Shown here: positions 6,968 to 64,000 of the stretch, in pieces
Layout of the letters: each line of letters starts with the position of its first letter
Numbering within the stretch: position 1 is the first letter of the stretch
Notes under the pieces: model-generated
Databases searched by the model: none
The model's input: only the letters and a program-made list of their open reading frames with translations
What the model was told of the DNA's origin: nothing
Program-made: the position numbers and the translations under genes
DNA from: Kordiimonas laminariae
GTDB lineage: Bacteria; Pseudomonadota; Alphaproteobacteria; Sphingomonadales; Kordiimonadaceae
Assembly: GCF_023008165.1 (NCBI RefSeq)
Contig: NZ_JAKQZA010000003.1
Location: 434,001 to 498,000 of the forward strand
DNA: 64,000 nucleotides
Direction: 5' to 3'

Positions 6968-7900
6968 CTATTTTTCCGCCCGACTTTCCGGATCCCAAAA
7001 CTCTTCTTGGATTTGAGATTGGAGGGGCCAATGGCGCCTATCGATTCTAATATCGCGCGTTGCAATATCATAACGTTGGTCAACCAGTTTGCGAATGCCC
7101 TTGCTAAAGGTAACCAAACGTTCCCTTGGGACCTCATGGCCGAGGCCTTTAATGGCGACAGTTTCTCTATGGGAAACGTTGGTAATATGTTTTTCCATGT
7201 AAGCCACATTGCCGTAAGGAACCAACACATCAGCTGTACCATGCATAATAATGGTCGGCACGGTGATGTTGCTGAGCTGCGGCCCCATGGCTTCCAGCTG
7301 TTTTGGCAAAGCCAGCAGTTCTCTATTAATAATCTTAAGCTCTTTCGGCACGAACCATGAAATGACGGGTGCATTTCCTAATTTCTGAACAAACAGAGGG
7401 GTAGGTTCCAGTTCCGGATCAAGTGAAGACGATGCCAAAAGCAGCCCGCCTATCTTATTTCCGTGCCGAATAGCCACCATCGCTGCGATCGGGCCACCTG
7501 ACGAATGGCCAACAATGATAGGCTTTTGACCGTTTTTCTCGACTAACAAAGGTATAATCGCATCAGCTTGCGTTTCAAGAGACGCAACAAGTTTATGGGG
7601 TTTTGTTTCACCGTACCCTGGGCGATCAACGACAATATATTCGATATCGTGTGGGCTACTACGTATAAACCGGTAATAGTCATCTGCGGCACCCGGGGTT
7701 CCGTGCAAAATAATTACCCGGCGGCCAGTGCTGCCAGATGTCAAATACGATATGTTAAATGCACCCTCACTGGTCTCCGAAGTGACAACACCGCGTTTAG
7801 CATATTCATTGCCCGCAAAATAAGTTTCATTACTAGAACCACATGCGGCAACAGCCAGGAAAACTAGTAGTGTAGAAAACGTTTTCAACAATATTTGCAT
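6968..7900 (-). CDS. alpha/beta-hydrolase lipoprotein
   Basis: A 310-residue alpha/beta-hydrolase with a lipoprotein signal: a hydrophobic leader ending in LAVAAC at about residue 20, where the Cys would be lipidated. Catalytic features are visible: the HGTPG oxyanion region, nucleophile elbow GHSSGG, the acid in HGTADVLVP, and the histidine in GLGHEVP. The protein is therefore likely an active esterase, lipase or peptidase held at a membrane facing the periplasm. The start has a GGGAGA ribosome binding site. It lies 13 bases after the beta-lactamase-fold gene and about 107 bases before the M23 gene, so the three probably form one transcript. The substrate is unknown. Confidence 0.85.
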   Translation of the reverse strand: MQILLKTFSTLLVFLAVAACGSSNETYFAGNEYAKRGVVTSETSEGAFNISYLTSGSTGRRVIILHGTPGAADDYYRFIRSSPHDIEYIVVDRPGYGETKPHKLVASLETQADAIIPLLVEKNGQKPIIVGHSSGGPIAAMVAIRHGNKIGGLLLASSSLDPELEPTPLFVQKLGNAPVISWFVPKELKIINRELLALPKQLEAMGPQLSNITVPTIIMHGTADVLVPYGNVAYMEKHITNVSHRETVAIKGLGHEVPRERLVTFSKGIRKLVDQRYDIATRDIRIDRRHWPLQSQIQEEFWDPESRAEK

Positions 7901-7913
7901 TGCTCAATTCTCC

Positions 7914-11928: not shown

Positions 11929-12144
11929 TCAATCAGCAATCATGGCTTTCACATCATCAAGACCAAGCGCATTGCCTCCAACACCCCACTGGCCATCCTT
12001 TACTTCTTCAATCACCACCCAAGTGGCATCGCGCAGCTTTTCGCTGGTCACCTCCAAAACAGAGTCCGTTACTTTTTCGATTAATTCTTTTGACTGAGAT
12101 TGACTGAGTTCATCTTTGAAAACTTTGACAGTTATAAGCGGCAT
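11929..12144 (-). CDS. 4-oxalocrotonate tautomerase family protein
   Basis: A 71-residue tautomerase. The chain from the ATG at 12144 begins Met-Pro-Leu-Ile-Thr-Val, giving the N-terminal proline that is the catalytic base after Met removal. The pattern VKVFKDELSQSQSKELIEKVTDSV and TWVVIEEV fits the family. An in-frame start at 12219 would hide the proline, so it was not used; AAGGA lies nine bases before 12144. It starts the transcript that continues into the SDR and AhpD-like genes, and is divergent from a LysR regulator. Confidence 0.88.
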   Translation of the reverse strand: MPLITVKVFKDELSQSQSKELIEKVTDSVLEVTSEKLRDATWVVIEEVKDGQWGVGGNALGLDDVKAMIAD

Positions 12145-49711: not shown

Positions 49712-49794
49712 AAACTCAGAGACGTGGGCCACTGTATCGAGCGGGGCCGGCCCACCCCCTTAACATCCTCCTCTCACGGATTTAAGGGTTTCCT

Positions 49795-49824
49795 AGGGAG
49801 AGATTTTTATCTCTCCCTTTTTTT
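49795..49824 (+). terminator. rho-independent terminator after the receptor gene
   Basis: Stem GGGAGAGAT with ATCTCTCCC around a four-T loop, followed by seven T residues. It separates the receptor from the GH3 gene, so the latter should have its own promoter in 49825-49880. Confidence 0.85.
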
Positions 49825-49880
49825 ATCCGCTTAACAACGCCTATCTCAGTGATAGAGTTACATTTTCAGGGATTAAAAGC

Positions 49881-52451
49881 ATGTTGCAAACACACACACT
49901 CTTTAAAGCAGCATCCATCTTGGCACTCAGCGTAGCAGCTTCGGCACATTTGGGTACAGCAGATGCCACAGCTGATCAAATGCAAGAAATACACCCTGAA
50001 GCCTGGCCTAAACTCACTTCGCCAATCAAACATGATCAAGCACTTGAAGACCGTATCAGTGTAATCATGGCGAAAATGTCTATTGAAGATAAAGTAGGCC
50101 AAACCATTCAGGGTGAACTTAGGCACCTAACCCCTGAAGACGTAAGAAAATACAGGCTCGGTTCAGTACTAAATGGCGGCGGCTCTCAACCATATGGAAA
50201 GAAGATTGCCACACCAGAAGACTGGCTACGCCTTGCAGATGAATTCTACGATGCGTCTATGGACACATCAGAAGGCGGCATTGCCATTCCTATTTTGTGG
50301 GGAACAGATGCAGTGCACGGCCATAATAATGTTAAAGGCGCTACTATTTTCCCGCACAATATTGGGTTGGGAGCAGCGCGGAACCCAAATCTTATTCGTC
50401 AGATTGGCCATGCTACAGCACGTGAAGTGCGTGTAACAGGGCAAGAATGGTCCTTCGCGCCCACCCTTGCGGTCGTGCGGGATGATCGGTGGGGTCGCAC
50501 CTATGAAAGCTACTCCGAGCACCCCCAAATTGTTGCAGACTATGCGAAAGCCATGGTGGAAGGCATTCAGGGTGCGGCCAACACTGATACATTCCTGACC
50601 GGCGATCATGTGATCGCATCTGCTAAGCATTTCCTTGGAGATGGCGGCACTGATGGCGGCAAAGACCAGGGCGATAATATAGACAGTGAAGAAACCCTCC
50701 GGGATATCCATGCTGCCGGTTATGTAACAGCACTTGATGCTGGCGTTCAGACTGTAATGGCATCCTTCAGCGGCTGGAACGGCAGGAAAATGCATGGCAG
50801 GAAAATGCTGCTCACTGATGTACTGAAGGGCCAGATGGATTTTGACGGTTTCATTGTTGGGGATTGGAACGGCCACGGACAAGTACAGGGCTGTACTAAC
50901 GAAAACTGCCCTGAGACCTATAACGCTGGCCTTGATATGGTGATGGTGCCGGAAGACTGGAAAGCGCTTTATCATAACACCGTTTCACAAGTGAAAGATG
51001 GTACTATTCCGCTGGAGCGCCTTGATGATGCAGTACGCCGTATCCTCAGAGTAAAAATTCGTGCCGGCCTTTTTGATGGTGGCAAGCCTTCAAGCCGGGC
51101 ACTCGCCGCAAAAACCGAGGTTCTTGGGCATAGAGACCACCGCGCTTTAGCGCGACAAGCAGTAAGAGAAAGCCTTGTTCTTCTTAAAAATAACGATGGT
51201 CTTCTACCTATCAAGCCAAACAGTACAATTCTTGTAACTGGCGACGGTGCAGATAATATCGGTAAACAATCTGGCGGCTGGACCCTTTCCTGGCAGGGTA
51301 ACGATAACCAGAACAGCGATTTCCCGGGCGGCACATCCATCTGGGACGGCATTAAAGAGGCAGCTGACAATAACGGTAGTAAAGCTACCTTAAGCGCCGA
51401 CGGTTCTTATGCCGAAAAGCCTGACGTGGCTATCGTAGTATTTGGCGAAAATCCTTATGCCGAATTTCAGGGCGACCGGGATTATCTGGCATATGGTTCC
51501 AGTAAAAACAACGAGGTTGAACTGCTCAGGAAATATCAGGCCGCGGGTATTAAAACTGTTGCCGTGTTCCTGAGCGGTCGACCTCTTTATACAACGCCTG
51601 AGCTGAATGCCTCAGATGCCTTCGTAGCTGCATGGCTACCGGGCTCACAAGGCGCTGGAGTTGGTGATGTTATTCTTTCAGGCCAAGACGGAAATCCTTC
51701 CAATGATTTCAAGGGAAAACTAAGCTTCTCCTGGCCTGAAAGAGCTGATCAAGGCCCCCTGAACGTGGGTGATGAACACTATGCGCCGCTCTTTGCCTAT
51801 GGATACGGTCTCTCATACACAGACAGCAAAAACCTCCCTGTCCTTGAAGAATTTGCAGTGCCGGAAACGGCTAACAGCGATTACTTCTTCAATGATGGCG
51901 TCGTGTCCCCGTATAAGCTTTTTGTAACCGCAGAACCAGCGTGGAGCCTGGAGATTGCGAACAATGGTGGTGAGCTTAAAGTTGCGGAACAGATCGCCGT
52001 AGAATTGGTAGACCGCAATGTGCAGGAAGATGCACGCCGTATCAGCTTCTCAGGCCAAGCCCAAGCCGCAGCAATGCTCAAAATCTTTGATACGCTTGAC
52101 CTAAGCCGCGAAACAAACGGCGATATGCAGCTTGGCATGACTATTCGGGTAGACAGCAAACCAGAGGGCCCGGTTTATCTGGGCATGGGCTGCGGCAACG
52201 AATGTTTTGGCGGCGTTGATATCGCAGAGCGCCTATCAAACTTCACTACTGGAGAATGGGTCAACGTCAACGTACCTCTCAAATGTTTCCGCGCTGCAGG
52301 TGCTGATATGGAAAAGCTGGAAACACTATGGCGTGTTGGTACCGATAAACCCTTTGCTTTCACTATCAACAAAGTAGGGCTTGTACCGCCACAAGCTGAT
52401 CTCAGTTGCCCACCTATAATCAAAAAAATAGACGGGATAAAACAAGACTAA
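49881..52451 (+). CDS. glycoside hydrolase family 3 beta-glucosidase / exo-glucanase
   Basis: An 856-residue exported GH3 enzyme (signal peptide ending near ALSVAASA). The N-terminal barrel has the catalytic nucleophile in GFIVGDWNGHGQVQ (Asp of the SDW-type motif) and the substrate-binding KHFLGDGGTDGGKDQG. The second domain has SGGWTLSWQG and FVAAWLPGSQGAGVGDVILSGQ. The C-terminal region (from about residue 670) is a carbohydrate-binding-like jelly roll as in marine ExoP-type exo-1,3/1,4-beta-glucanases. Its neighbours (LacI, symporter, receptor) support beta-glucan or cello-oligosaccharide use. Confidence 0.92.
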   Translation: MLQTHTLFKAASILALSVAASAHLGTADATADQMQEIHPEAWPKLTSPIKHDQALEDRISVIMAKMSIEDKVGQTIQGELRHLTPEDVRKYRLGSVLNGGGSQPYGKKIATPEDWLRLADEFYDASMDTSEGGIAIPILWGTDAVHGHNNVKGATIFPHNIGLGAARNPNLIRQIGHATAREVRVTGQEWSFAPTLAVVRDDRWGRTYESYSEHPQIVADYAKAMVEGIQGAANTDTFLTGDHVIASAKHFLGDGGTDGGKDQGDNIDSEETLRDIHAAGYVTALDAGVQTVMASFSGWNGRKMHGRKMLLTDVLKGQMDFDGFIVGDWNGHGQVQGCTNENCPETYNAGLDMVMVPEDWKALYHNTVSQVKDGTIPLERLDDAVRRILRVKIRAGLFDGGKPSSRALAAKTEVLGHRDHRALARQAVRESLVLLKNNDGLLPIKPNSTILVTGDGADNIGKQSGGWTLSWQGNDNQNSDFPGGTSIWDGIKEAADNNGSKATLSADGSYAEKPDVAIVVFGENPYAEFQGDRDYLAYGSSKNNEVELLRKYQAAGIKTVAVFLSGRPLYTTPELNASDAFVAAWLPGSQGAGVGDVILSGQDGNPSNDFKGKLSFSWPERADQGPLNVGDEHYAPLFAYGYGLSYTDSKNLPVLEEFAVPETANSDYFFNDGVVSPYKLFVTAEPAWSLEIANNGGELKVAEQIAVELVDRNVQEDARRISFSGQAQAAAMLKIFDTLDLSRETNGDMQLGMTIRVDSKPEGPVYLGMGCGNECFGGVDIAERLSNFTTGEWVNVNVPLKCFRAAGADMEKLETLWRVGTDKPFAFTINKVGLVPPQADLSCPPIIKKIDGIKQD

Positions 52452-52547
52452 AGCACCATAACGGTCAGTTGGTTGGGCTGGTTTGCCGGAATTCTCATAG
52501 TGTGCGATACTCTATCGGTGTCGCACACAGGAATTAAAGGCCACCAG

Positions 52548-53075
52548 ATGAAACACCGTTCAGCTGCTCAACGTATTTTCGTGATAACGATGATATTGCT
52601 TTCCGTGCCACTTGTAGCCATGCAGTTCACAACTGAAGTAAACTGGAGTGCGGGTGATTTTCTGGTAGCCGCCATTCTCATTGCTGGTGCTCTCTGCACC
52701 TATGAATTTATGACCTTGAAATCCAGGCAATATTACTACCGTATTGCCGCAGGTTTATCAGCTCTCAGTTTTTTGCTTTTGGTTTGGGTAAACCTTGCTG
52801 TTGGGATTATTGGCAATGAAGCCAATCCAGCCAATCTGGTATATTTTGGTATATCTATCGCTGCAGTGGTTGGTGCCTTGATCAGCCGTTTCAAACCCAC
52901 AGGGATGAGCTACACACTTATTGCCACCGCTCTCTTACAAGCAGCGATAGCTCTTACAGTATATCTGGCAGGCTTGGGGCAGATATTCATGTTATCAGCC
53001 GGGTTCATAGCTATTTGGCTGGTAGCCGCATGGTTTTTCAGAAAAGCGGCTACACAAACACCATCATTCTCTTAA
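52548..53075 (+). CDS. hypothetical membrane protein
   Basis: A 175-residue protein with about five hydrophobic helices and little hydrophilic sequence. It begins with an amphipathic basic segment (MKHRSAAQRIFVITMILLSVPLVAMQF). The ATG at 52548 was chosen over an in-frame start at 52473 because the extra N-terminus is not membrane-like. No family can be named. It follows the GH3 gene on the same strand by about 95 bases and ends four bases before the convergent GlxA-type regulator. Confidence 0.6.
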   Translation: MKHRSAAQRIFVITMILLSVPLVAMQFTTEVNWSAGDFLVAAILIAGALCTYEFMTLKSRQYYYRIAAGLSALSFLLLVWVNLAVGIIGNEANPANLVYFGISIAAVVGALISRFKPTGMSYTLIATALLQAAIALTVYLAGLGQIFMLSAGFIAIWLVAAWFFRKAATQTPSFS

Positions 53076-53078
53076 TAC

Positions 53079-54026
53079 TCACGTCCCCGTAGAGATGGCA
53101 AAACGTGCCCGGTAATCTCTCGGCGTTAATCCCATTACCTTATGGAATATCCGGCGAAATGCGCCCGGGTCCTGGTAACCCACCTGCCACGCGATCTGAT
53201 CTACACTTTGGCTCGTAAGTTCCATCAATTCTCTCGCTTTCCCGATTCTGAGGTGCTGCAAATACTCAGATGGACTAAAACCTGTGGCCTGCTGAAAACG
53301 GCGTATAAAGGTGCGACTAGACAAGCCGGAAAACTCTGTCATTTCCTTCACTGTAATTGCCTCCACAAACCCAGACTGGAGCCACTGCTGTACTTTCAGA
53401 ACTGCACTATCACCATGAGACAGAGAAGGCGAAAAAACACTATAAAAACGTTGTTCTCTTTCACCGGGATCAACCAGTAAAAATTTCGCCGTTTTGAGCA
53501 TAATGGCTGGCCCTAAAAACCTATCTACCAGCTTAAGCCCCAAATCAATCCATGCCATAACGCCGCCAGCGGTGATAAGGTCGCCATCATCCACAAGCAT
53601 ACGCTCAACATTCAGTTCAACATCAGGGTAGCTGCTTTCAAATTGGCTCGCCAGATCCCAATGGGTGGTAGCCGTACGTCCATCAAGCAAACCTGCTTCA
53701 GCAAGCAGGAACGCACCAGCACATACCGAACACATTAAAACGCCGTCGCCATATAATTTCTGAAGATCAGCTCTAAATATACCGGCGGTACTGAGAATAT
53801 CTCCATGCAAACTTGGCGGCAGGATAAGGGCAGACAAAGGGGCACACTTTTGGGCACACAGTTCGGTCAAAACCTCTATTTTCAGGGGTCTGTGCCCAAA
53901 AGTGTGCCCAGCCTCCCTGTGAAGTCTCTCAGCCGTTTCAAACAGATCCAAAAGCCCATAAACCGCCGCATTTTGCGCCCCGGGATATTTAAAAATACCA
54001 ATATGAATATCAGGTGATGTTACCAT
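53079..54026 (-). CDS. GlxA-type AraC regulator with DJ-1/PfpI domain
   Basis: A 315-residue regulator. Residues 1-180 form a DJ-1/PfpI amidase-like domain with the cysteine elbow MCSVCAGAFLLAEAG, and the rest is an AraC helix-turn-helix (VKEMTEFSGLSSRTFIRRFQQATGFSPSEYLQHLRIGKARELMELT...DQIAWQVGYQDPGAFRRIFHKVMGLTPRDYRARF). It is divergent from an isochorismatase-fold hydrolase and a GST, its likely targets. A perfect 19-bp inverted repeat (53840-53858 and 53891-53909) is embedded in the coding sequence, coding for AGHTFGH on one side and CAQKCAP on the other. Confidence 0.9.
   Translation of the reverse strand: MVTSPDIHIGIFKYPGAQNAAVYGLLDLFETAERLHREAGHTFGHRPLKIEVLTELCAQKCAPLSALILPPSLHGDILSTAGIFRADLQKLYGDGVLMCSVCAGAFLLAEAGLLDGRTATTHWDLASQFESSYPDVELNVERMLVDDGDLITAGGVMAWIDLGLKLVDRFLGPAIMLKTAKFLLVDPGEREQRFYSVFSPSLSHGDSAVLKVQQWLQSGFVEAITVKEMTEFSGLSSRTFIRRFQQATGFSPSEYLQHLRIGKARELMELTSQSVDQIAWQVGYQDPGAFRRIFHKVMGLTPRDYRARFAISTGT
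53840..53909. repeat. perfect 19-bp inverted repeat inside a gene
   Basis: GGGCACACTTTTGGGCACA at 53840-53858 and its exact complement TGTGCCCAAAAGTGTGCCC at 53891-53909, with a 32-base spacer. Each arm also contains two GGGCACA units. It lies in the coding sequence of the GlxA-type regulator near its N-terminal part. Confidence 0.9.
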
Positions 54027-54120
54027 ATGGCAGATTTAGCATGAAATATGTCACATATGCCAATCCTCAAACCATCCCAAGCTTCTTATTTTAGCTTTCA
54101 AGCAATAAGGAGACCCTGAA

Positions 54121-54666
54121 ATGAGCAATCAAGCCCTCATCATTATCGATCTGCAAAATGATTATTATCCCGGCGGAAAATGGGAACTACACGGTATTGA
54201 ACAAGCTTCTGAAAACGCTGTAAAAATCCTTTCTAACGCTCGGGAAAAGAACCTCCCTGTTTTCCATGTGCATCATGAATTTCTGATGGAAAACCCGCCT
54301 TTCTTTGCTCCTGGAAGCGAAGGTGCCAACATCCATGAAACGCTGAAGCCAATAGAAGGAGAAGCAACAGTTCTCAAGCATCAGGTAAATGCTTTCCGCG
54401 ACACCAATCTTAAAGAACTTCTTGATGAAAAAGGTGTTGAAAAAATAACCATTATCGGTGCCATGAGCCACATGTGCATTGATGCCGCCACGCGTGCAGC
54501 CGCAGATTACGGTTATCAGGTTACAGTGGTTGAAGATGCCTGCGCCTCCCGCGATTTGGAGTTTGAAAACAAGACGGTGAAAGCAGTAGATGTTCACGCA
54601 GCCTATATGTCAGCGCTCGGTTTTGCATACGCGAATGTGATCTCCACCAAAACTTATTTAGGTTAA
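54121..54666 (+). CDS. isochorismatase-fold cysteine hydrolase
   Basis: A 181-residue cysteine hydrolase. The catalytic triad is visible: Asp in LIIIDLQNDYYPGG, Lys in VLKHQVNAF, and Cys in GAMSHMCIDAATRAAADYG. The HHEF and DACASRDLEFEN segments also match. Such enzymes act on nicotinamide, isochorismate or small amides; no specific substrate can be told. It has an AAGGAG ribosome binding site and is divergent from the GlxA-type regulator. The GST gene follows by 23 bases in the same transcript. Confidence 0.9.
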   Translation: MSNQALIIIDLQNDYYPGGKWELHGIEQASENAVKILSNAREKNLPVFHVHHEFLMENPPFFAPGSEGANIHETLKPIEGEATVLKHQVNAFRDTNLKELLDEKGVEKITIIGAMSHMCIDAATRAAADYGYQVTVVEDACASRDLEFENKTVKAVDVHAAYMSALGFAYANVISTKTYLG

Positions 54667-54689
54667 TGAGTTAGAGGAAAGGAAATCCC

Positions 54690-55337
54690 ATGCCTGCAAC
54701 ACTTTACCATGCGCCTCTCGCCTGCTCACTAGCTGCTCGTTTCGCAGCCGCTGAAGGTGGCGTACCGCTTGATATTGAATACCTGAACTTGCGCACCAAA
54801 GAGCTGGAAAAAGGTGGTTCATTTCTTGATGTAAACCCACTTGGGCAGGTTTCTGTGCTCAAGCCAGAGGATCAGCCATTCATCACTGAAACTGCAGCTA
54901 CAATTTTGTGGATCCAGTCTCAATCAGAAAATACCTCTTTTCGTATAGACCCGTCCCATCCTGACTATTTCCAGATGATACGCTGGCTTGGTTTCTGCGC
55001 CACAGAGCTGCACAAACAAATCTTCCGTATCGTTTTTTACGGCGAAGCAACGGATGATGTGAAAGACCGAATTCGGGATTTAGCGCCTCAGCGATTTGAA
55101 TTTCTTGATAGGCATCTAACGGACAGACCATATTTGCTCGGCGACCATTTCACAGCAGCAGATGCATATCTTACATGGTTTTTCGTTTTATCGGACCGCG
55201 CTCAACTTGACGCTTCAGGCTATAAAAACCTAAGCGCATACAGTGAGCGTACATTAAGCCGTCCGCTTATTGCAGAGCTTATCATAAGCGATACTGCAAA
55301 AGACGAAGCAATGAATCAGCAAATTCTACCCAAATAG
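54690..55337 (+). CDS. glutathione S-transferase family protein
   Basis: A 215-residue GST-like protein with an N-terminal thioredoxin-fold region (LYHAPLACSLAARFAAAEGGVPLDIEYLNLRTKE...VNPLGQVSVLKPEDQPFITETAAT) and a C-terminal helical domain (LTDRPYLLGDHFTAADAYLTWFF). The segment NPLGQVSVL and the acidic ITETAAT bear the glutathione site. It probably detoxifies an electrophile together with the cysteine hydrolase. It has a GAGG-type ribosome binding site. Confidence 0.9.
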   Translation: MPATLYHAPLACSLAARFAAAEGGVPLDIEYLNLRTKELEKGGSFLDVNPLGQVSVLKPEDQPFITETAATILWIQSQSENTSFRIDPSHPDYFQMIRWLGFCATELHKQIFRIVFYGEATDDVKDRIRDLAPQRFEFLDRHLTDRPYLLGDHFTAADAYLTWFFVLSDRAQLDASGYKNLSAYSERTLSRPLIAELIISDTAKDEAMNQQILPK

Positions 55338-55341
55338 CCAA

Positions 55342-55375
55342 AAGCAATAACATCTACTTTATGGTGTTATTGCTT
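55342..55375 (+). terminator. hairpin after the GST gene
   Basis: Perfect 11-base arms, AAGCAATAACA (55342-55352) and TGTTATTGCTT (55365-55375). Only a weak T-rich stretch follows, so it is a probable, not certain, terminator. It is the boundary between the GST transcript and the AT-rich promoter region of the secretion locus. Confidence 0.6.
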
Positions 55376-55595
55376 ATCTCTTTGATATTTTAGTTAAAAC
55401 AAATTTAAATCAATTGCTTCAATAACTTATATAAATTCTTCCAAAAAAATTCCCACATTTTCGCCACAATTTAGACAAGCACTAAATAATCAATTAGTTG
55501 TGATCACATCCTTATTGACAACTTATTGTTTTATTCGACTAAATCTATCCAAAGTTTAGCCAGTAATAAGTCAAATTCAATCGTGGGGGTTGAGT
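55376..55595 (+). promoter_or_regulatory. AT-rich upstream region of the peptide-secretion locus
   Basis: About 220 bases without a gene, strongly AT-rich. A TTGACA at 55515-55520 with a TAAAT/CTAAAT-like stretch about 18 bases later is the best promoter candidate. No clear operator repeat was seen. Confidence 0.35.
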
Positions 55596-56837
55596 GTGTT
55601 TCGTAGTGAAGCTCTAAATGCACAAAAACAGAAGGTACACGGAGATGTGTTTCTAACGCAGCCCATACCTATCACCACGATTACACTTCTGATTGCTGCT
55701 ATCGTTACAGTGTTAATGATTTTATTGTTTACAGGCTCATATGCACGAAGCGAAAGAGTTGCTGGTTATCTCGTCCCTTCAAAAGGCCTCGTTAAAATAC
55801 AGGCCAGCCAATTTGGTGTTCTCCAAAATCTCTATGTGAAAGAAGGCAACCTAGTTGAAGAAGGGCAAGCCCTTGTAGATATTTTAATTGCCCCTAATGC
55901 TGCGGATGGAAGTAGTTTTATTGATCGAGGCCTCGCGGCTGTTCAGCATCAATACACCTTAATTGATACCCAAATCACACTTGAAGAAAACCAGCTGGAA
56001 TCTGAACTGGCAAAACTGTCATCAGATCAAAAAGAGCTTACGCTCCGCATTCAATCTTTAAACCAGCAATTAGGTATCCAAAGAAAAATCACAGCGTCCG
56101 CTGAAGCAGCCTACAAGGATGTTCAGGAAATTCTCGGCAAAGGATACATCAGCAAGGTTGAATCTGAACGCCGCCATCAAACATGGTTGGCACAACAAGC
56201 ACAGGAACAGTTACGGGAGCAAGAACTTGTTGAGGCGAATGCCCGCAATGAGCAGCTACAAATCCGTTTAAATCAGGTTTCCACAGAAAGCCAACAACGT
56301 ATTACCCGTCTGGCAAATCAAAAATCTGAACTCGATAGCCGTAAAGCGGAATTGGAAGGCAGACAAGCCTATACCATCACCTCCCCTGTAAAAGGGAAAG
56401 TTGTAAGCCTCTCCATTAGGAACGCAGGCAGATCTGTACAGGGTGGCCAACCTCTTCTGGCGATATTACCGGAAGGCAGCACCCTTGAAGCTGAATTGTT
56501 CGTGCCCAGCCGCGCAGCAGGCTTTGTAAAAGAAGGGCAGGAAGTTCAGTTACTCTATGATGCCTTCCCCTACCAACGCTTTGGTAGCCATGCGGCAACA
56601 TTAAAAAGTGTCACGGAAACAATCCTTTCCCCAACGGAAACACTCGCTCCCTTTGAGATTCAAGAACCTGTGTACCGGGTGGTTGCCAATCTGAAATCTG
56701 ATCAAATTGTGACAGGTGAACAGTCAATCAATTTACAGGGCGGCATGACCTTACAGGCAAATATCATTCTGGAACGCCGAAGTTTTATGGAATGGCTTCT
56801 GGAACCTTTGAAATCAATAGGAGCCTCAAACGATTAA
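55596..56837 (+). CDS. HlyD-family secretion adaptor of the peptide locus
   Basis: A 413-residue membrane fusion protein: one N-terminal membrane helix (ITLLIAAIVTVLMILLFTGSY), a lipoyl-like segment (GVLQNLYVKEGNLVEEGQALV), a long coiled coil (residues about 115-260), a second lipoyl half (AYTITSPVKGKVVSLSIRNAG) and a beta-barrel domain. It resembles the CvaA/bacteriocin-export branch. The start is a GTG at 55596 with GGGGG six bases upstream; the preceding TTG has the site touching it. It would join the inner-membrane C39 exporter to an outer-membrane channel, which is not encoded in this window. Confidence 0.85.
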   Translation: MFRSEALNAQKQKVHGDVFLTQPIPITTITLLIAAIVTVLMILLFTGSYARSERVAGYLVPSKGLVKIQASQFGVLQNLYVKEGNLVEEGQALVDILIAPNAADGSSFIDRGLAAVQHQYTLIDTQITLEENQLESELAKLSSDQKELTLRIQSLNQQLGIQRKITASAEAAYKDVQEILGKGYISKVESERRHQTWLAQQAQEQLREQELVEANARNEQLQIRLNQVSTESQQRITRLANQKSELDSRKAELEGRQAYTITSPVKGKVVSLSIRNAGRSVQGGQPLLAILPEGSTLEAELFVPSRAAGFVKEGQEVQLLYDAFPYQRFGSHAATLKSVTETILSPTETLAPFEIQEPVYRVVANLKSDQIVTGEQSINLQGGMTLQANIILERRSFMEWLLEPLKSIGASND

Positions 56838-56926
56838 AGAATTTGGTTTCTCTGAAACCAGATAGAGGCATCAGCCTCACATAACAAAGGCAATAATGCC
56901 AATTATCAACTTGTGGAGTAACAAAC

Positions 56927-57121
56927 ATGAATAAATTTGAAGAACTAAACCTGATTGAACTTGATCTTGTAAATGGTGCAGGCAATGGCCTTTTTGCCTC
57001 TGAAGAAGATGCTATTGCATGTGAAGGCGATGAAATTACAAGTGTGGCTGACTTTGGCCCGCAAGGTAATACCATTTTCTTTGGCTCTTCTGGCAGTACA
57101 GGCTCCAGAATTCCTCGCTAA
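56927..57121 (+). CDS. putative leader-bearing secreted peptide 1 (Gly-Ala type)
   Basis: A 64-residue precursor. The N-terminal part NKFEELNLIELDLVNGA follows the double-glycine leader pattern (acidic, with L-x-x-x-E-L-x-x-V before a small pair) but ends in Gly-Ala rather than Gly-Gly. The predicted mature part, about 46 residues from GNGLF, is acidic then Ser/Gly-rich and has one cysteine. The gene has a GGAG ribosome binding site and lies between the adaptor and the C39 exporter, so secretion by this exporter is likely. Function is inferred from leader and place only. Confidence 0.7.
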   Translation: MNKFEELNLIELDLVNGAGNGLFASEEDAIACEGDEITSVADFGPQGNTIFFGSSGSTGSRIPR

Positions 57122-57146
57122 TATCTCAAATACTTCAGGCTAAAAT

Positions 57147-59366
57147 ATGCAGTCCACACTCAATCTTTCCGGCAAATCACGCCTTCCGCTTATTCGGCAG
57201 AATGAAGCGGCTGAGTGTGGGCTTGCATCTTTAGCTATGGTGGCGGGGTATTATGGTTTCAAAACCGACCTCGCCACTTTACGCCGCAGATACGCGGCCG
57301 GGCTTCAAGGTATGACCCTGAGACATATTATTGAAGTGGCAACCAAAATGGAATTTGCCACGCGCCCAATTAAAGTACCCCTAGAGATGATTGATCAGGT
57401 AAAATTACCTGCCGTTCTTCATTGGGATATGAGCCATTTTGTGGTGCTTAAATCTGTTGGCAAAAACAAAATGGTGGTTCATGATCCTGCTCTTGGTGAA
57501 CGAACCTATACCACTGAAGAATTTTCTGATCACTTTACAGGGGTTGCGCTTGAACTCACACCGTCAGAAACATTCGAAAAACGGGAAGAAAAAACCACAC
57601 TTCGCCTGACAGATTTATGGGGCCGTATGTTTGGCCTCAAACGAAACCTCGTTCAGGTTTTCATTCTGTCTGTTGTATTGCAGCTTTTTGTACTCGCAAG
57701 CCCTTTTTATCTGCAAATTGCTGTGGACGAAGTGCTTACCAAATTTGATACAGACCTTCTTTTTGTACTCGCATTAGGGTTCGCTGGCTTCACCCTTATC
57801 AATGTACTTACACAAACTCTGCGAGGGTATGTGCTGCTCTATTTCGGTAGCATGATGAGTTACCAGATGGTTGGAAATCTTTTCCGACACCTTCTTAAAT
57901 TGCCCATTGATTTCTTCGAGAAGCGCCATATTGGCGATATTGTCTCACGTTTTGGTTCCATGGAACCGATTAAGGCCATGCTCACAGAAGGGCTAATTGC
58001 CAGCCTGATTGACGGTATGATGGCTCTTACCACACTTGTGCTGATGTTTATCTACAGCCCTACGCTGGCTGCAATCGCACTTACTGCATGGGCGCTTTAT
58101 CTGGTCCTTCGGATGATGTTTTACCGCCCTTTCCGGCAAGCGCAGGAAGATGCCATCATCGCACGAGCAAAAGAACAAACAACCTTTATGGAAACTGTTC
58201 GCGGCATGACCAGTTTGAAACTGTTTGGCGGTGAAAGCGAACGTACAGGCATGTGGCAGAACCGCTATGCCGAAGTGATCAATACCAATGCCAAAAATTC
58301 AAAGCTCGGCATCTGGTTTCAGAGCGCAAATTCAGGCATCTTCGGCATTGAACATATCATTCTTATTTATGTGGCAGTGCAGATGGTATTAAGCGCTGAT
58401 TTTAGCGTGGGAATGATTTTTGCCTTTATGGCGTACAAACGGAACTTCACCGATAAAGCAACAGCGCTTGTTGAAAAGGCCATAGAATACCGCATGCTCA
58501 GCCTGCATCTTGAGCGTATCGCAGATATCGCCCATGCGGAACAGGAAGAACAGCCTCTGGATATACCGCAAACCGTTGAACAACCACCGCTTACGGGTGA
58601 AATCATCCTCCAGAATATTCGTTACAGATACGCTGACAACACACCGGACGTTCTTAAAAACGTGAACCTGCACATTAAAACTGGAGAATCTGTTGCGATC
58701 GCAGGCCCAAGTGGATGCGGAAAAACAACGCTGCTCAAGATTATGACCGGGCTTTTTAAACCAAATGAAGGCCAGGTGCTGCTCGGGGATACATCTCTTT
58801 CAGATTATGGACTTACCAAATACCGCAAACATATTGGTGTGGTTATGCAGGAAGATGATCTTTTTGCAGGTTCCATCTCCGAGAACATCGCCTTTTTCGA
58901 CCCGGAAACCGATATGGAACGCGTGATAGCAGCTGCGAAAGCCGCCCAGATTCATAATGAAATCATGGCAATGCCTATGAACTATGAAAGCCTTGTAGGG
59001 GATATGGGTTCGGCCCTCAGCGGCGGCCAAAAACAGCGTATTATGCTGGCCCGCGCGCTCTACAGACAACCCAAGATCCTGTTTATGGATGAAGGTACTG
59101 CACATCTGGATGTGGCAACCGAGCACATGGTGAACCAATCAATCGCGAACCTCGGTATCACTCGCATCATTATCGCCCACAGGCCAGAAACCATCCGCTC
59201 CGCTAACCGTGTGCTGGAGATGAAAGGCGGTGAGCTTGCGGAACAAATCAACACACAACAGAATTTAGAGAGCTTCAATGCTGTCAGTGAACATTTGCAA
59301 ACTACTGATAGCATGAAGGCAGGCATGAATGGTTCATCTCTGCAAACTGAAGGAGCGAATGGATGA
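57147..59366 (+). CDS. C39-peptidase ABC exporter (bacteriocin-type)
   Basis: A 739-residue exporter. The N-terminal C39 peptidase has Gln18, catalytic Cys24 in NEAAECGLASLAMV, His97 in HWDMSHFVV and Asp113 in VHDPA, so it should cut double-glycine leaders. Six membrane helices follow (about 165-450). The ATPase has Walker A GPSGCGKTT, Q-loop VMQEDDLFAG, signature LSGGQKQR and Walker B ILFMDEGTAHLD. The Gly in DEGT is slightly unusual. It is a CvaB-type transporter, found here with four leader-bearing peptides and an HlyD adaptor. Confidence 0.94.
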   Translation: MQSTLNLSGKSRLPLIRQNEAAECGLASLAMVAGYYGFKTDLATLRRRYAAGLQGMTLRHIIEVATKMEFATRPIKVPLEMIDQVKLPAVLHWDMSHFVVLKSVGKNKMVVHDPALGERTYTTEEFSDHFTGVALELTPSETFEKREEKTTLRLTDLWGRMFGLKRNLVQVFILSVVLQLFVLASPFYLQIAVDEVLTKFDTDLLFVLALGFAGFTLINVLTQTLRGYVLLYFGSMMSYQMVGNLFRHLLKLPIDFFEKRHIGDIVSRFGSMEPIKAMLTEGLIASLIDGMMALTTLVLMFIYSPTLAAIALTAWALYLVLRMMFYRPFRQAQEDAIIARAKEQTTFMETVRGMTSLKLFGGESERTGMWQNRYAEVINTNAKNSKLGIWFQSANSGIFGIEHIILIYVAVQMVLSADFSVGMIFAFMAYKRNFTDKATALVEKAIEYRMLSLHLERIADIAHAEQEEQPLDIPQTVEQPPLTGEIILQNIRYRYADNTPDVLKNVNLHIKTGESVAIAGPSGCGKTTLLKIMTGLFKPNEGQVLLGDTSLSDYGLTKYRKHIGVVMQEDDLFAGSISENIAFFDPETDMERVIAAAKAAQIHNEIMAMPMNYESLVGDMGSALSGGQKQRIMLARALYRQPKILFMDEGTAHLDVATEHMVNQSIANLGITRIIIAHRPETIRSANRVLEMKGGELAEQINTQQNLESFNAVSEHLQTTDSMKAGMNGSSLQTEGANG

Positions 59367-59422
59367 CCGCTAAACCATTCCATTCGCCCCAATCCATAAC
59401 ATGAAGAAATGGAGGCAGTCAT

Positions 59423-59563
59423 ATGACTGATAATATTGATAATTACAATGAAAATCAGATTGAAGAAATCAACTCTGAAGATACTACAAGTGTAAGTGGT
59501 GGTTTAAGCTGGGAAGAAATTTGGAAGAATGTAGAAGAGACATTCAACGAATTGATAGCCTAA
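59423..59563 (+). CDS. double-glycine leader peptide precursor 2
   Basis: A 46-residue precursor with an acidic leader (Asp/Glu/Asn-rich) ending VSGG at residues 24-27, a textbook C39 cleavage site. The 19-residue mature part, LSWEEIWKNVEETFNELIA, would form an amphipathic helix with two tryptophans, like an unmodified membrane-active or signalling peptide. It has an ideal GGAGG ribosome binding site, seven bases before the ATG, and lies 56 bases after the exporter. It is too short for usual ORF calling. Confidence 0.82.
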   Translation: MTDNIDNYNENQIEEINSEDTTSVSGGLSWEEIWKNVEETFNELIA

Positions 59564-59625
59564 CAGTTCCTTGGAACTTTGGCACTGTAAGTCGAAATTT
59601 AACCCAATAAAACGGAGATAGTAAT

Positions 59626-59814
59626 ATGAGCATTACTACAGATAATCGCAATGACACCCAGATTCAGGAATTAACCATTGATGAAATCAATGAAGTTTCT
59701 GCTGGCTTAGGCATTAGATGCATTCGGGGGCTTTTAGAGGCTGTTGGCGCTATCGCGCTTATTGATGAATTTGCTGAAGGTTTCAAAGAAGGTTGGAACT
59801 CACCCTACGGATAA
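59626..59814 (+). CDS. double-glycine-type leader peptide precursor 3
   Basis: A 62-residue precursor. The leader (about 27 residues) has the pattern ELTIDEINEVSAG, which ends in Ala-Gly. The 35-residue mature part has a small-residue helix (GLLEAVGAIALI), one cysteine, and ends EGFKEGWNSPYG. A GGAGA site precedes the ATG. The FKEG motif recurs in two small membrane proteins downstream. It fits a class II bacteriocin-like peptide. Confidence 0.82.
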   Translation: MSITTDNRNDTQIQELTIDEINEVSAGLGIRCIRGLLEAVGAIALIDEFAEGFKEGWNSPYG

Positions 59815-59858
59815 ATACAACAATCATTTTAGTGTTAAATTCAAATGGAGATAAAGAC

Positions 59859-60008
59859 ATGATTAGAGAACTGAGTGATACAGAAGTAGCATTAGTAACT
59901 GGCGGCGGCATAATTCACGATGCTGGCAAATGGGTCGGCAGAGTTGCTAGGCACGCATATTATGATCTTGAAGAAAAAGCCCGCGCACTTGGCTTCTTTC
60001 TAGATTAA
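59859..60008 (+). CDS. double-glycine leader peptide precursor 4
   Basis: A 49-residue precursor. MIRELSDTEVALVTGG is the typical leader (RELxDxEVxxVxGG), with cleavage after Gly16. The mature part has 33 residues, positively charged in the middle (KWVGRVARHAYY) and amphipathic. The ATG at 59859 has a GGAGA site; an in-frame TTG at 59793 gives a longer form that lacks a sensible leader, so it was not used. It stands last of the four peptides. Confidence 0.85.
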   Translation: MIRELSDTEVALVTGGGIIHDAGKWVGRVARHAYYDLEEKARALGFFLD

Positions 60009-60071
60009 TCAATAATGTTAGGCGGTGTAATTCTATGCCGCCCAACCTTCTTACCATACAAGGGCAATTTT

Positions 60072-60740
60072 ATGAATAAGACGATTAATTCAAGTCCAAA
60101 TATTACATATTTTTCACTAAGCCAGTCGATCATAACTCTTTTTATTTCAGTTATGATTTCTTTCTTATGTGTTTTTGCAGCATTTATAATTTGGCCCGAT
60201 TTTCTTGAAACTAATGATGCATACTCTGGTGCACTGATTTTTTCTATTTTGATTATTACAGTTTCTTTGCTTCATTATAAAAAATTCAAAAGCGATACCC
60301 TCAAAGTAATGGGCATAACGAAAAAGCTTCCATATAGAGATATATTTACATATTCCTTAATCATTGTTATTTGCGCAGAAATTTTTTCCCAAATTTTTAT
60401 AAGTGATTTTGCCGTTAAATCTAATGAATCCATAGCTAAAACAGAACTATGGGAAGCAATAATATTTTCAGTGGTTTTAGCACCTATCGCGGAAGAATTT
60501 ATATTCCGGCAATTATTGTTTGTGCCTATGATTTCTAAAATTGGCGTGGTGCTGGCAACTATTTTAACTTCTTTAATATGGGCAAGTATTCATTATGACT
60601 ATCCAGTCATGGCGCAATTTAGCATTTTCGGGGCGGGTTTAGCTTATTCTTACTTGCGGGTAAAATACAAAAGCATTCTTGCACCTCTTATAGCCCATGC
60701 GGTTCATAATGGAATACAGATTTATCTGATATTCAGTTAA
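60072..60740 (+). CDS. CPBP-family membrane protease, possible immunity protein
   Basis: A 222-residue integral membrane protein with about six helices. It has the CPBP (Abi/CAAX) motifs: E141-E142-F-x-x-R146 in APIAEEFIFRQLL, H174 in LIWASIHYDY, and HAVHNG (H209, H212) near the end. CPBP proteins next to bacteriocin genes (as in plantaricin loci) are known or proposed to give immunity. The ATG at 60072 has an AAGGG ribosome binding site. It follows peptide 4 by 63 bases, before three tiny membrane proteins. Confidence 0.82.
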   Translation: MNKTINSSPNITYFSLSQSIITLFISVMISFLCVFAAFIIWPDFLETNDAYSGALIFSILIITVSLLHYKKFKSDTLKVMGITKKLPYRDIFTYSLIIVICAEIFSQIFISDFAVKSNESIAKTELWEAIIFSVVLAPIAEEFIFRQLLFVPMISKIGVVLATILTSLIWASIHYDYPVMAQFSIFGAGLAYSYLRVKYKSILAPLIAHAVHNGIQIYLIFS

Positions 60741-60966
60741 CCTATTCGCTAATGCAATTTCTCTCTTTCTTTTTTGCATGATGATCTGAATGCAAACCTT
60801 GCAAAGGCTTCAAGCGCCATTATAAAAATAACGATAACCAGAAGAGTAATACTTCGCGACCGCAGTTTTTAATCGTATTAACTGTGGTGCCAATTTGCAG
60901 TTATGTTTTTGGCAAAGATTTAGTACTCAAGCATAATTAAGTCTGACGCACTAAAGAGAACAGAAA

Positions 60967-61092
60967 ATGCTCCAAATGAACGCATACTTTAAAACCGGAT
61001 TACGCTTAGGCTTCAAGGAAGGGGTCTCTTTTGGTGTCTATATCGGGCTGGCTATCCTTGGACTCCTTTTAATTAAGAAATATTTTCTGTAA
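60967..61092 (+). CDS. small membrane protein 1 of the peptide locus
   Basis: A 41-residue protein with one hydrophobic helix (GVYIGLAILGLLLI) framed by a basic segment (LRLGFKEG) and a KKYFL tail. No leader or Gly-Gly site. A GAGAA stretch precedes the ATG. The segment GFKEG recurs in peptide 3 and the next small protein. It may be an immunity or accessory protein; its coding status rests on the reading frame and context. Confidence 0.5.
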   Translation: MLQMNAYFKTGLRLGFKEGVSFGVYIGLAILGLLLIKKYFL

Positions 61093-61198
61093 TTCATCTA
61101 TATGGAGATATAGCGAGTATTTCTTTGATGAAACGGACACACCTTTCAAATTAAGCAGCCCATATCTATCGAACACGACACTACAAAGGGTTAAGAAA

Positions 61199-61336
61199 GT
61201 GGCATTAAAAAATGATTTGATTGCCGATTTTAAAGAAGGTTTTCTGACCACAACTGTGAAACCTTGGCAGGTAACTGTTTTTATCGTCCTCGGGCTGACC
61301 TTAACCACTGCTTATATCTTACTGACCACTCAATAA
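61199..61336 (+). CDS. small membrane protein 2 of the peptide locus
   Basis: A 45-residue protein, GTG start (61199) with AAAGGG eight bases upstream. DFKEGFLTTTVKPWQ precedes a hydrophobic helix (VTVFIVLGLTLTTAYILL). The frame continues upstream without a stop but without a good start. The FKEG motif matches the previous gene and peptide 3. Function unknown; likely membrane-inserted. Confidence 0.5.
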   Translation: MALKNDLIADFKEGFLTTTVKPWQVTVFIVLGLTLTTAYILLTTQ

Positions 61337-61357
61337 GCTTTTCCGTCGGGCAATGTA

Positions 61358-61483
61358 ATGCAAAAAACTGAAATTAAACCGCACCACCTGATCGTTGCCA
61401 GTGCACTGGGGTTCATACTTTTACTTAGTTTTTCAGTAGGGTATGAATATGGCCACCATATAGGCCAAAGCCTGTTCCAATAA
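61358..61483 (+). CDS. small membrane protein 3 of the peptide locus
   Basis: A 41-residue protein with a single hydrophobic helix (LIVASALGFILLLSFSVGYEYG) and two histidine pairs (PHHLI and GHHIG). It lacks the FKEG motif but has a related GYEYG. It follows the previous small gene by 21 bases. Whether it is truly translated cannot be decided from sequence; context and length match the other two. Confidence 0.42.
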   Translation: MQKTEIKPHHLIVASALGFILLLSFSVGYEYGHHIGQSLFQ

Positions 61484-61576
61484 CTGCACCGCCATAAATA
61501 AAACAGCTATTCTGCTTGCATTCCTTCCGCCCCTGTTTTCATATTCCTTTTGGGAACAGGGAAGCTGGAGGGCTAT

Positions 61577-61882
61577 ATGCAATCACCTGAGGTGAAAGAA
61601 GAAACCACATCAAAAGATATCAGTGAACGATCAAACGATTACTGGAAAGCCAATATCGCCTTACTCCTTAAACTATTAGCGGTTTGGTTTGTTGTGTCCT
61701 TCGGTGCTGGCATTCTATTCGTTGATGAACTTAACACCATTGAACTCTTTGGAGTGAAGCTCGGGTTCTGGTTCGCACAGCAAGGTTCCATCTATGTCTT
61801 TGTAGCCCTGATATTTGTCTATACCTCCGCCATGCGGAAGCTTGACCGCAAATACGGCGTTGATGATGAGGGAGATGCCTGA
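61577..61882 (+). CDS. DUF4212 small subunit of sodium/substrate symporter
   Basis: A 101-residue protein with two hydrophobic helices that matches DUF4212 ([35 protein letters not shown] and [38 protein letters not shown]). DUF4212 proteins pair with a sodium:solute symporter subunit. The ATG at 61577 has GGAGGG before it; a TTG at 61550 in frame is too early. The stop overlaps the next start by one base (TGATG). Confidence 0.9.
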
Positions 61883-63657
61883 TGGATGCTTCAACCCTCA
61901 CCTATATTTTCGTAGGCATCAGTTTTGCGCTTTATATCGGTATTGCCATCTGGTCCCGTGTTGGTTCCACAAAAGAGTTTTATGTGGCAGGCGGCGGTGT
62001 GCACCCTGTTGTGAACGGTATGGCCACCGCAGCTGACTGGATGAGCGCGGCCTCCTTTATCTCCATGGCGGGGCTTATTGCCTTCCTTGGGTATGATGGC
62101 TCCGTTTACCTGATGGGCTGGACAGGCGGCTATGTGCTGCTCGCACTCCTTCTTGCGCCTTATCTCAGAAAGTTCGGCAAATTCACCGTGCCTGATTTCA
62201 TTGGTGATCGGTACTATAGTGATGCTGCCCGTCTTGTGGCTGTTATCTGCCTTATCTTTATCAGCTTCACCTATGTAGCAGGGCAGATGCGCGGGGTAGG
62301 CATCGTGTTCTCTCGCTTCCTTGAAGTAGATATTGATCTCGGCGTGATCATCGGCATGGCTATTGTTTTCATGTATGCGGTACTCGGCGGCATGAAAGGT
62401 ATTACCTACACACAGGTAGCGCAGTACTGTGTGCTTATTTTCGCCTATACTGTTCCTGCCATTTTTATTTCCATGCTTATTACAGGCAACCCTGTGCCTC
62501 AGTTCGGGCTCGGTTCCGAAGTCACAGATGGTTCAGGCTTAACAGTGCTCGGAAAGCTGGATAGTGTGCTAACAGATTTAGGCTTCACCGCCTACACGGA
62601 AGGCACCAAATCCACTACCGATATCTTCGCAATTACCGCAGCCCTGATGGTGGGTACCGCAGGCCTGCCGCATGTGATCGTCCGTTTCTTCACGGTCCCC
62701 AAAGTGTCTGATGCTCGTAAATCAGCGGGGTGGGCGCTGGTATTTATTGCGATTCTCTATACCACTGCACCTGCCGTTGGTGCTTTCGCCCGCATCAATT
62801 TCATTAACGAAGTAAATGAAACAGCTTACGCGGAAACACCTCAGTGGTTCAAAAACTGGGAAGACCTTGGCCTTGTTGGTTGGACCGATAAAAACGGTGA
62901 CGGCAATATTCAATACCGCGCAGGCGCACCATTTGACGGCAAACCCACTTTTGATGGCGAAAAACGAGGCCCGAACGGTGAACGTGTTATAACCAATTCT
63001 GTTACCACAAGCGCTAACGAAGTATATGTTGACCGCGATATCATGGTGCTCGCAAATCCTGAAATTGCCAAACTACCAGACTGGGTGATCGCACTTGTAG
63101 CCGCTGGCAGTTTAGCTGCTGCCCTTTCCACCGCGGCAGGCCTTCTTCTAGTGATTTCTTCTGCTGTCAGCCATGACCTGATGAAGAAAACCTTCAAGCC
63201 TGAAATTACTGACAAGGAAGAACTTCTTTATGCTCGCATTGCCGCAGCCTGTGCCATCGGGGTGGCAGGGTATTTGGGCATCAACCCACCTGGGTTTGTC
63301 GCGCAAGTGGTGGCCTTCGCTTTTGGCCTTGCGGCTGCAAGCCTGTTTCCTGCAATCCTCATGGGTATTTTCTCACGCCGGATGAACAAGGAAGGCGCGA
63401 TTGCTGGCATGTTGGTGGGGCTTCTTTTCACCTTTGCTTATATCGTTTATTTCAAGTTCATCGCGCCAGAGGCAAACACAGCGGCAAACTGGTGGTTTGG
63501 TATATCACCTGAAGGTATTGGTTCTCTGGGTATGGTACTGAACTTCCTGGTAGCAACCGCCGTTTCAAAAGCCAGCAGTGCACCACCCGCTGAGGTGCAA
63601 GAGCTTGTGGATACTATTCGTATTCCTTCAGGCGCTGGTGCTGGGCACAAGCACTAA
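61882..63657 (+). CDS. sodium:solute symporter, ActP/VC_2705-type
   Basis: A 591-residue transporter with about thirteen hydrophobic helices of the SSS family. Motifs: [58 protein letters not shown], typical of acetate/monocarboxylate ActP-like or VC_2705 symporters. A large loop between helices contains [12 protein letters not shown], an EF-hand-like calcium site. It acts with the DUF4212 subunit. Substrate is probably a small organic acid or amino acid. Confidence 0.9.
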
Positions 63658-63668
63658 AAAAACAGAAA

Positions 63669-63700
63669 GGCGCATGGATAAGCAGTCATGCGCCTTTTTT
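63669..63700 (+). terminator. rho-independent terminator after the symporter
   Basis: Stem GGCGCATG (63669-63676) with CATGCGCC (63687-63694), ten-base loop, then six T residues. It abuts the stop codon of the convergent rsgA gene. Confidence 0.85.
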
Positions 63701-64000
63701 CTATGAACGTTGCTGTCCTTTTTTAGCTTTCACATGACGCCGCACCATTTTACTGAATTGACGGTCTCTGTGTCGCTGCTCTGATAAGGACGAAGTATTT
63801 CTCGCTTCTTCAAGAATAAGCTTCTGGTAATTTTTCAGGCGTCGAGGGTCAAGCTCTCCTGCTTCAAGGGCAGCTCTTACAGCACAGCCGGGCTCTTCCA
63901 CATGCGCGCAGTTCCTGAATTTACAGTGCTGGGCGATAGCTTCAATATCATCAAAAACTTCCGCAAGGGATGTACTTAGGTGCGCAACTTTCACCTCTCG
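63701..64000 (-). CDS. rsgA: RsgA (YjeQ) ribosome biogenesis GTPase, C-terminal part
   Basis: The C-terminal part (about 99 residues) of the 30S-maturation GTPase RsgA; the start lies beyond the window. The zinc motif is visible: C-x4-C-x-H-x5-C in HCKFRNCAHVEEPGC. The sequence REVKVAHLSTSLAEVFDDIEA in front and EAGELDPRRLKNYQKL after it match the family. It is one of the few housekeeping genes here. The terminal basic tail (RRHVKAKKGQQ) is usual for the family. Confidence 0.92.
   Translation of the reverse strand, partial: REVKVAHLSTSLAEVFDDIEAIAQHCKFRNCAHVEEPGCAVRAALEAGELDPRRLKNYQKLILEEARNTSSLSEQRHRDRQFSKMVRRHVKAKKGQQRS

Follow-up and report, generated by a model that had tools for sequence, protein, structure and literature searches.

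Locus content

The window is a 64,000-nucleotide stretch of the Kordiimonas laminariae genome, and the locus lies at its positions 55596–61483. It encodes a HlyD-family adaptor, a C39-peptidase ABC exporter, four leader peptides (p1 to p4), a CPBP intramembrane protease and three tiny hydrophobic proteins (m1 to m3) (Table 1). All the genes that an earlier, sequence-only reading had placed there are present at its coordinates. The p1 gene lies between the adaptor and the exporter. By eye, a GGAG-type ribosome site is visible upstream of each of p1 to p4. Promoter and terminator scans gave counts close to those of shuffled sequence.

Table 1. Features of the locus, in window coordinates.
Feature	Position	Strand	Remarks
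HlyD-family adaptor (membrane fusion protein)	55596..56837	+	HlyD_3 8.7e-17 (Pfam); alternative start TTG 55590
Non-coding 5' module of p1	56864..56926	+	Two small hairpins by eye, GAGGC-ATCA-GCCTC and GGCA-ATAA-TGCC
p1, 64-aa leader peptide, VNGA	56927..57121	+	Acidic core, mature start GNGLFASEEDAIAC
C39-peptidase ABC exporter	57147..59366	+	Cys24-His97-Asp113; 3' tail past 59222 lies within the exchanged segment
Exchanged segment	59223..60975	.	Content differs from L041; flanks align; 36.7% G+C
p2, 46-aa leader peptide, VSGG	59423..59563	+	Core 19 aa, amphipathic, acidic
p3, 62-aa leader peptide, VSAG	59626..59814	+	Core 35 aa
p4, 49-aa leader peptide, VTGG	59859..60008	+	Core 33 aa, amphipathic
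CPBP (Rce1-like) intramembrane protease	60072..60740	+	PF02517 1.8e-17; residues EEFIFR, H, HAVHN; proposed immunity protein
m1, 41-aa hydrophobic ORF	60967..61092	+	Hydrophobicity by eye; only the first three codons lie within the exchanged segment
m2, 45-aa hydrophobic ORF	61199..61336	+	Hydrophobicity by eye
m3, 41-aa hydrophobic ORF	61358..61483	+	Hydrophobicity by eye

The exporter matches the Pfam families Peptidase_C39 (1.1e-35), ABC_membrane (8.3e-34) and ABC_tran (1.4e-34). Its Cys24, His97 and Asp113 are invariant in nine of nine aligned exporters, the window's included. With the Pfam match of the adaptor, these results bear out the proposed pairing of a HlyD adaptor with an intact C39 exporter. 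The exporter is the sole Peptidase_C39 match in its genome. The NHLP bacteriocin exporter family TIGR03796 is its best NCBIfam match, at 504.4 bits against a curated cut-off of 853.3. OEP/TolC-family matches over cut-off were obtained for five genes elsewhere in the genome, all outside the window.

Neighbouring genes between 49.9 and 64.0 kb were scanned; they are GH3, AraC/PfpI regulator, isochorismatase, GST, DUF4212 and sodium:solute symporter genes. No modifying enzyme was found among them beside the precursors, as had been claimed, and no peptide-kinase regulatory system. Two neighbouring ORFs (52473–53075 and 63701–63994) are without a Pfam match. The reading as an export locus for double-glycine peptides of class II type, apparently unmodified, is supported.

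Related exporters with leader peptides were found in, for example, Bradyrhizobium and Rhodospirillales. The Bradyrhizobium exporters at L084, L087 and L089–L095 have VAAG-ending leader peptides about 1.4–1.5 kb upstream of C39, with polar cores that resemble one another and are unlike bacteriocins. At L195 (1643–4035), four Ser/Gly-rich leader peptides, two of them nearly identical, lie by the 3' end of C39 at a contig edge. One further locus, L043, has a broken C39 frame.

Leader peptides

A 13-residue leader motif was derived from p1 to p4 themselves; its independent test is provided by the loci of relatives. Within the window, 4 of 771 ORFs of 25–150 aa match it, all of them p1 to p4, and 20 dinucleotide shuffles gave a mean of 0.25. 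Of 95 related exporter loci, 51 contain the motif and 44 do not; the 73 matches, spread over 1.44 Mb, compare with 2–4 per shuffle (five shuffles). These 95 loci are the set that remained after removal of 30 short stubs and five duplicate loci. In the genus, 15 exporter-free loci totalling 202 kb yielded one match. The claim of four double-glycine-type leaders beside the exporter stands, as the motif picks out exactly p1 to p4 and recurs at the exporters of relatives.

A leader profile of 20 rows was run over 29 family genomes. Of the 13 genomes that have a C39 match, 11 gave leader matches at E<0.1, compared with none of the 16 that lack one (Fisher p 2e-6), a count that is partly circular because 7 of the 11 genomes supplied profile rows and the E<0.1 line was chosen after the list had been viewed. 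The independent positives are four genomes (G009, G017, G022 and G025) versus zero. At E up to 10, a match is also present in 3 of the 16 genomes without C39. Additional orphan genes for leader peptides were located in the window genome and its sister at L192 5923–6153 (contig C22 of the window genome), L193 6045–6242 and L194 5848–6066, with no exporter in the parts read.

An HMM search of the peptides, as the sequence-only reading had proposed, gave no Pfam or NCBIfam match over cut-off for any of p1 to p4. Below cut-off, p4 matches the lactococcin G-alpha/enterocin 1071A class IIb family (E 0.04, 14.0 bits against a cut-off of 37), p1 matches a lantibiotic family within its leader (E 0.098) and p3 matches AcrIIA4 (E 0.012–0.029). 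Weak matches of p1 and p4 to two Pfam families are chance-like, and p2 has no weak match at E up to 10.

The cores of p1 to p4 are 46, 19, 35 and 33 residues in length and carry charges of -5, -4, -2 and 0, acidic to neutral. Calculated masses of the unmodified cores are 4665.9, 2350.6, 3766.3 and 3775.2 Da (average masses, disulfides not counted). Amphipathicity places p2 at 0.4% and p4 at 1.0% of shuffles; p3, at 9.1%, is not significant. Gly, Ala, Val and Ile make up 37, 21, 43 and 39% of the cores, with at most one GxxxG in each. Typical class II bacteriocins are cationic, and these short, acidic to neutral cores are unlike them.

Comparison with relatives

The locus was aligned with its counterpart L041 in a sister genome, G013. 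Aligned identity is 96.6% over 48968–59222, where 48968 is the start of the stretch fetched for the alignment, and 94.1% over 60976–64000. Positions 59223–60975 do not align to L041. L041 has additional peptide copies that interrupt the first of these alignments over ~0.7 kb. At the protein level, HlyD is 99.5%, C39 97.6%, m1 77%, m2 89% and m3 85% identical. The counterpart interval in L041 holds the C39 end, a DUF2059 protein, a different leader peptide, a 63-aa hydrophobic ORF and a TraB/GumN protein.

DUF2059 relatives 37–45% identical are encoded at L035, L036 and L044, and TraB relatives 59–63% identical at L036 and L054. Because such relatives occur in other loci, the L041 content looks ancestral and the window's block looks derived. 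The block has a G+C content of 36.7%, compared with 46.6% and 47.9% in the flanks, and falls in the lowest 0.7% of equal-sized windows. Its composition and content suggest that p2 to p4 and the CPBP gene form a bacteriocin-immunity cassette, apparently acquired by a resident exporter of the class II microcin type. Between these near relatives a peptide-plus-CPBP block has been exchanged while the exporter stayed in place.

The sequence-only reading had taken a lack of conservation of the small genes beside the exporter in relatives to count against it. In L041 the exporter, flanks and p1 are conserved, but p2 to p4 and the CPBP gene are replaced. The objection applies in part, as searches of the other 28 family genomes gave no convincing homologue for either p3 or p4.

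Downstream of the locus lies a DUF4212-symporter gene pair, which was inspected in all other genomes of the genus except G009 and G012, 15 of 17 in total. Upstream of the pair, no HlyD, C39, p1 or m1 to m3 was found at E<0.01 in these 15 genomes, with one stretch (L135) spanning only 2.3 kb. In another genus, at L036, an exporter is located ~7 kb upstream of the pair.

CPBP protease and proposed immunity

A profile of five CPBP proteins found CPBP genes in 8 of the 95 exporter loci, one of which (L048) also supplied a protein to the profile, and in none of the 15 control loci. CPBP is not a standard part of such loci, as 87 of 95 lack it by this profile. A tblastn search with the window CPBP had given no match at E<1e-5 in the 95 loci, and absence of CPBP from relatives was rejected as a conclusion, the search being too weak to detect the eight loci that the profile found.

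In six of the eight cases the CPBP gene closely follows a leader peptide gene on its own strand; in four of the six the leader has the strict motif and lies within ~0.35 kb. The strict-motif pairs are at L038 (1586–2560), L048, L113 (5913–7073) and L124 (6595–7680), and L108 and L111, both on the reverse strand, follow a looser pattern. These pairs are from other Proteobacteria, L048 being from a family genome; L105 and L117 are unpaired. The L038 CPBP is without EExxxR. The 29 family genomes contain 136 CPBP matches, of which only two are <5 kb from a leader match at E<0.1 (by eye), and L048, with a leader E of 0.18, is a third case of proximity.

The window genome encodes an orphan pair elsewhere (L160 6002–6772, contig C24), in which a 68-aa leader peptide is followed after 48 bp by a 171-aa CPBP protein (PF02517 2.9e-9). 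No exporter is present within the 13 kb read, and the only C39 of the genome is elsewhere. The pair was located by convergence of a p3 search (E 0.5, weak alone) and a CPBP search (E 3.4e-4). Its leader is a row of the leader profile, so its profile E-value is not independent. The pair has a G+C content of 36.8% versus 46.0%. In its CPBP the H and HxxxN residues are retained, but EExxxR is missing its second Glu and its Arg.

The earlier reading had placed immunity among the CPBP protein and the three tiny ORFs alike. Position and recurrence now favour CPBP as the proposed immunity protein, because it lies inside the swapped block and leader-CPBP pairs recur, while m1 to m3 stay put when the cargo changes. 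Such recurrent pairs suggest CPBP proteins as immunity factors in Gram-negative loci.

Immunity conferred by one or more of m1 to m3, with CPBP as a processing or unrelated protease, is an unlikely reading, although it fares best among the alternatives. Small inner-membrane proteins are the usual microcin immunity proteins (PMC9746304), and m1 to m3 were observed ahead of the symporter in just the two genomes whose locus occupies this site. A tblastn search of the 95 loci with m1 to m3 gave no match at E<1e-5 except L041, and m2 has a dN/dS of 0.55 from 8 changes between the window and L041. A weak p3-m2 similarity would fit this reading (p 0.003, the best of 40 comparisons of m1 to m3 as p3 relatives), but it fails multiple-comparison correction and the relationship was rejected. 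The three ORFs remain when p2 to p4 are replaced, and leader-CPBP pairs recur without them. The profile count of 8 in 95 loci lowers this alternative and raises the bacteriocin reading with CPBP immunity.

A different route to immunity was considered at L035, where a 38-aa leaderless ORF (11980–12096) matches the core of the preceding leader peptide at 16 of 27 positions (z 13.7). This ORF may have arisen from the bacteriocin gene and serve as a decoy or in immunity. As a general rule the idea was rejected, with one strong case only in a survey of 51 loci with cores, the window's included. The next leaderless pair, at L034, scores 46, and 6 of 4682 cross-locus pairs reach 45.

The separate peptide p1

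The four peptides had been treated as one group, which they are not: p2 to p4 swap as a block with CPBP, while p1 stays, is acidic and shares its mature start with an orphan gene. That start, GNGLFAxxEDAxxC, is common to four copies in three genomes (GNGFFA in one copy). The orphan p1-type gene, at L197 in another genus, was picked up by the leader alone. A search of 396 genomes of the order returned four strong p1 copies in three genomes, all four of them profile rows; nine other matches (E 0.004–0.05) were taken as noise. The p1 core is not amphipathic. Between the window and L041, p1 has a dN/dS of 0.28 from 13 changes, which lean synonymous.

In L041, positions 7897–8703 hold two p1-type copies and a third leader peptide, each behind a similar two-hairpin 5' module, and a remnant of the C39 start lies between peptide copies (about 8203–8322). 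The arrangement would fit cassette multiplication via tandem duplication. Rfam searches at E up to 1 gave two matches far below the gathering score, neither in the p1 5' module, and both were taken as chance. Acidic and with a conserved mature start, p1 is probably not a killer peptide.

These features of p1, namely its charge, its non-amphipathic core, its synonymous-leaning changes and a core start shared as far as an orphan of another genus, would also suit an exporter that mainly secretes signalling peptides (pheromones), with p1 as the signal and p2 to p4 as accessories. We regard that reading as rather improbable, since no receptor kinase is present among the scanned neighbours and p2 to p4 turn over as a block with the CPBP gene, like bacteriocin-immunity sets.

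Alternatives: possible modified peptides or chance ORFs

The peptides would instead be modified (RiPP) precursors if enzymes encoded elsewhere in the genome acted on them. Sister exporters 67–77% identical to the window's adjoin modification-type genes. At L045 (11033–14277) the exporter's neighbours include JmjC_2 and an ATP-grasp maturase-like gene (TIGR04187 6.9e-32, below cut-off), and at L037 (3753–7254) the exporter is beside JmjC_2, Fic and sulfotransferase genes; leader peptides are present at both. These are possible modified-peptide loci, which suggests that exporters of the window's group also carry modified peptides. The sequence-only reading had named a link of the exporter to unrelated cargo as evidence against itself, and these two sister exporters supply part of that evidence. 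For the window's own peptides the RiPP reading is doubtful, because no such enzyme gene is found among the neighbours scanned and p2 to p4 are, by eye, unlike the polar cores of the L045 and L037 type.

That the four peptide genes are chance or decayed ORFs, and the neighbouring exporter handles other cargo, is very improbable given the leader-motif statistics and, by eye, the ribosome sites and tight spacing, even though p2 to p4 offer no homologues for a selection test.

Proposed function

The locus is best explained as a class II microcin/bacteriocin-type system with an acquired cassette of p2 to p4 and CPBP, a reading to which we give a probability of about 0.7, killing and immunity being predicted. 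The peptides are most likely weapons against rival bacteria, accompanied by a membrane protein that would protect the maker. By analogy with its families, the C39 domain would cleave the precursors behind their VNGA, VSGG, VSAG or VTGG ends. Export of the four cores would then run through the pump, the adaptor and a TolC-type channel encoded elsewhere. The p2 to p4 peptides may act on membranes of competing relatives, singly or as a multi-peptide bacteriocin, and CPBP would protect the producer. The block from p2 to CPBP would have been acquired onto the resident exporter. As the lone exporter of its genome, the C39 protein may also serve orphan precursors encoded elsewhere. In this scheme p1 would be cargo of another kind, possibly a signal or a helper.

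A broader proposal is tentative. One exporter may carry two kinds of cargo, an acquired and exchangeable set of short, non-cationic amphipathic peptides with CPBP immunity and an acidic p1 family of signals or helpers, not toxins, with its own repeated hairpin module. Peptide-CPBP pairs would recur across Proteobacteria, also without an exporter and in some cases with a CPBP protein without EExxxR. If this is true, a CPBP protein that has lost EExxxR may protect without proteolysis.

Comparison with known systems

By architecture, the locus was filed as class II microcin-type, with activity and immunity as predictions. Like microcin V and H47 it combines a C39 transporter, an adaptor, GG/GA leaders and a candidate immunity gene, and its exporter is 39.4% identical to CvaB and 38.4–38.7% to MchF, the comparison being by exporter sequence. 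Known class II microcins are longer than the 19–46 residues of the window cores. Among the class II microcin parts named in PMC9746304, the C39 transporter with its triad and the membrane fusion protein are present at the locus and TolC in the genome. For the cognate immunity protein, CPBP and m1 to m3 are candidates from their position and recurrence. The leader of p1 ends in GA and those of p2 and p4 in GG, while the AG of p3 is outside the strict GG/GA definition.

Firmicute class II loci with Abi/CPBP immunity, with which Kjos et al. 2010 is reportedly associated, share a CPBP gene within a multi-peptide locus, but the window has an adaptor-type Gram-negative exporter. Pneumococcal blp cassettes are a parallel for a block acquired onto a resident exporter. 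The angicin blp3 locus is a multi-peptide locus that holds a CAAX gene (PMC8692603).

Class II-type loci had been thought little described in Alphaproteobacteria. They are not rare, and Cdz of Caulobacter crescentus is published (PMC5380434). No paper on a class II microcin in Alphaproteobacteria was found in the literature searched. Cdz (CdzABCDI) is a two-protein bacteriocin, probably unmodified, with a type I exporter and a membrane immunity protein; a CaaX protease beside cdz is dispensable (PMC5380434). By this description, the window resembles Cdz in being alphaproteobacterial and in using type I export. Cdz differs in its glycine-zipper cores and in being surface-bound and contact-dependent (PMC5380434). 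The window cores, with 21–43% G/A/V/I, do not form an extended glycine zipper.

The mcbABCI locus of Moraxella catarrhalis has the same order of HlyD, C39-ABC, leader peptide and small downstream gene, and its exporter is 45.7% identical to the window's. It differs in that it has a single peptide and that its 74-aa immunity protein shows no significant similarity, and the stretch read contains no CPBP, p1-type gene or three-peptide block. Killing and immunity have been demonstrated for mcbABCI (PMC2761928). With Moraxella mcbABCI, Caulobacter Cdz and microcin V as proven parallels, the kind of system is already known, and a Kordiimonas-type genome is added to the known users of double-glycine peptide export.
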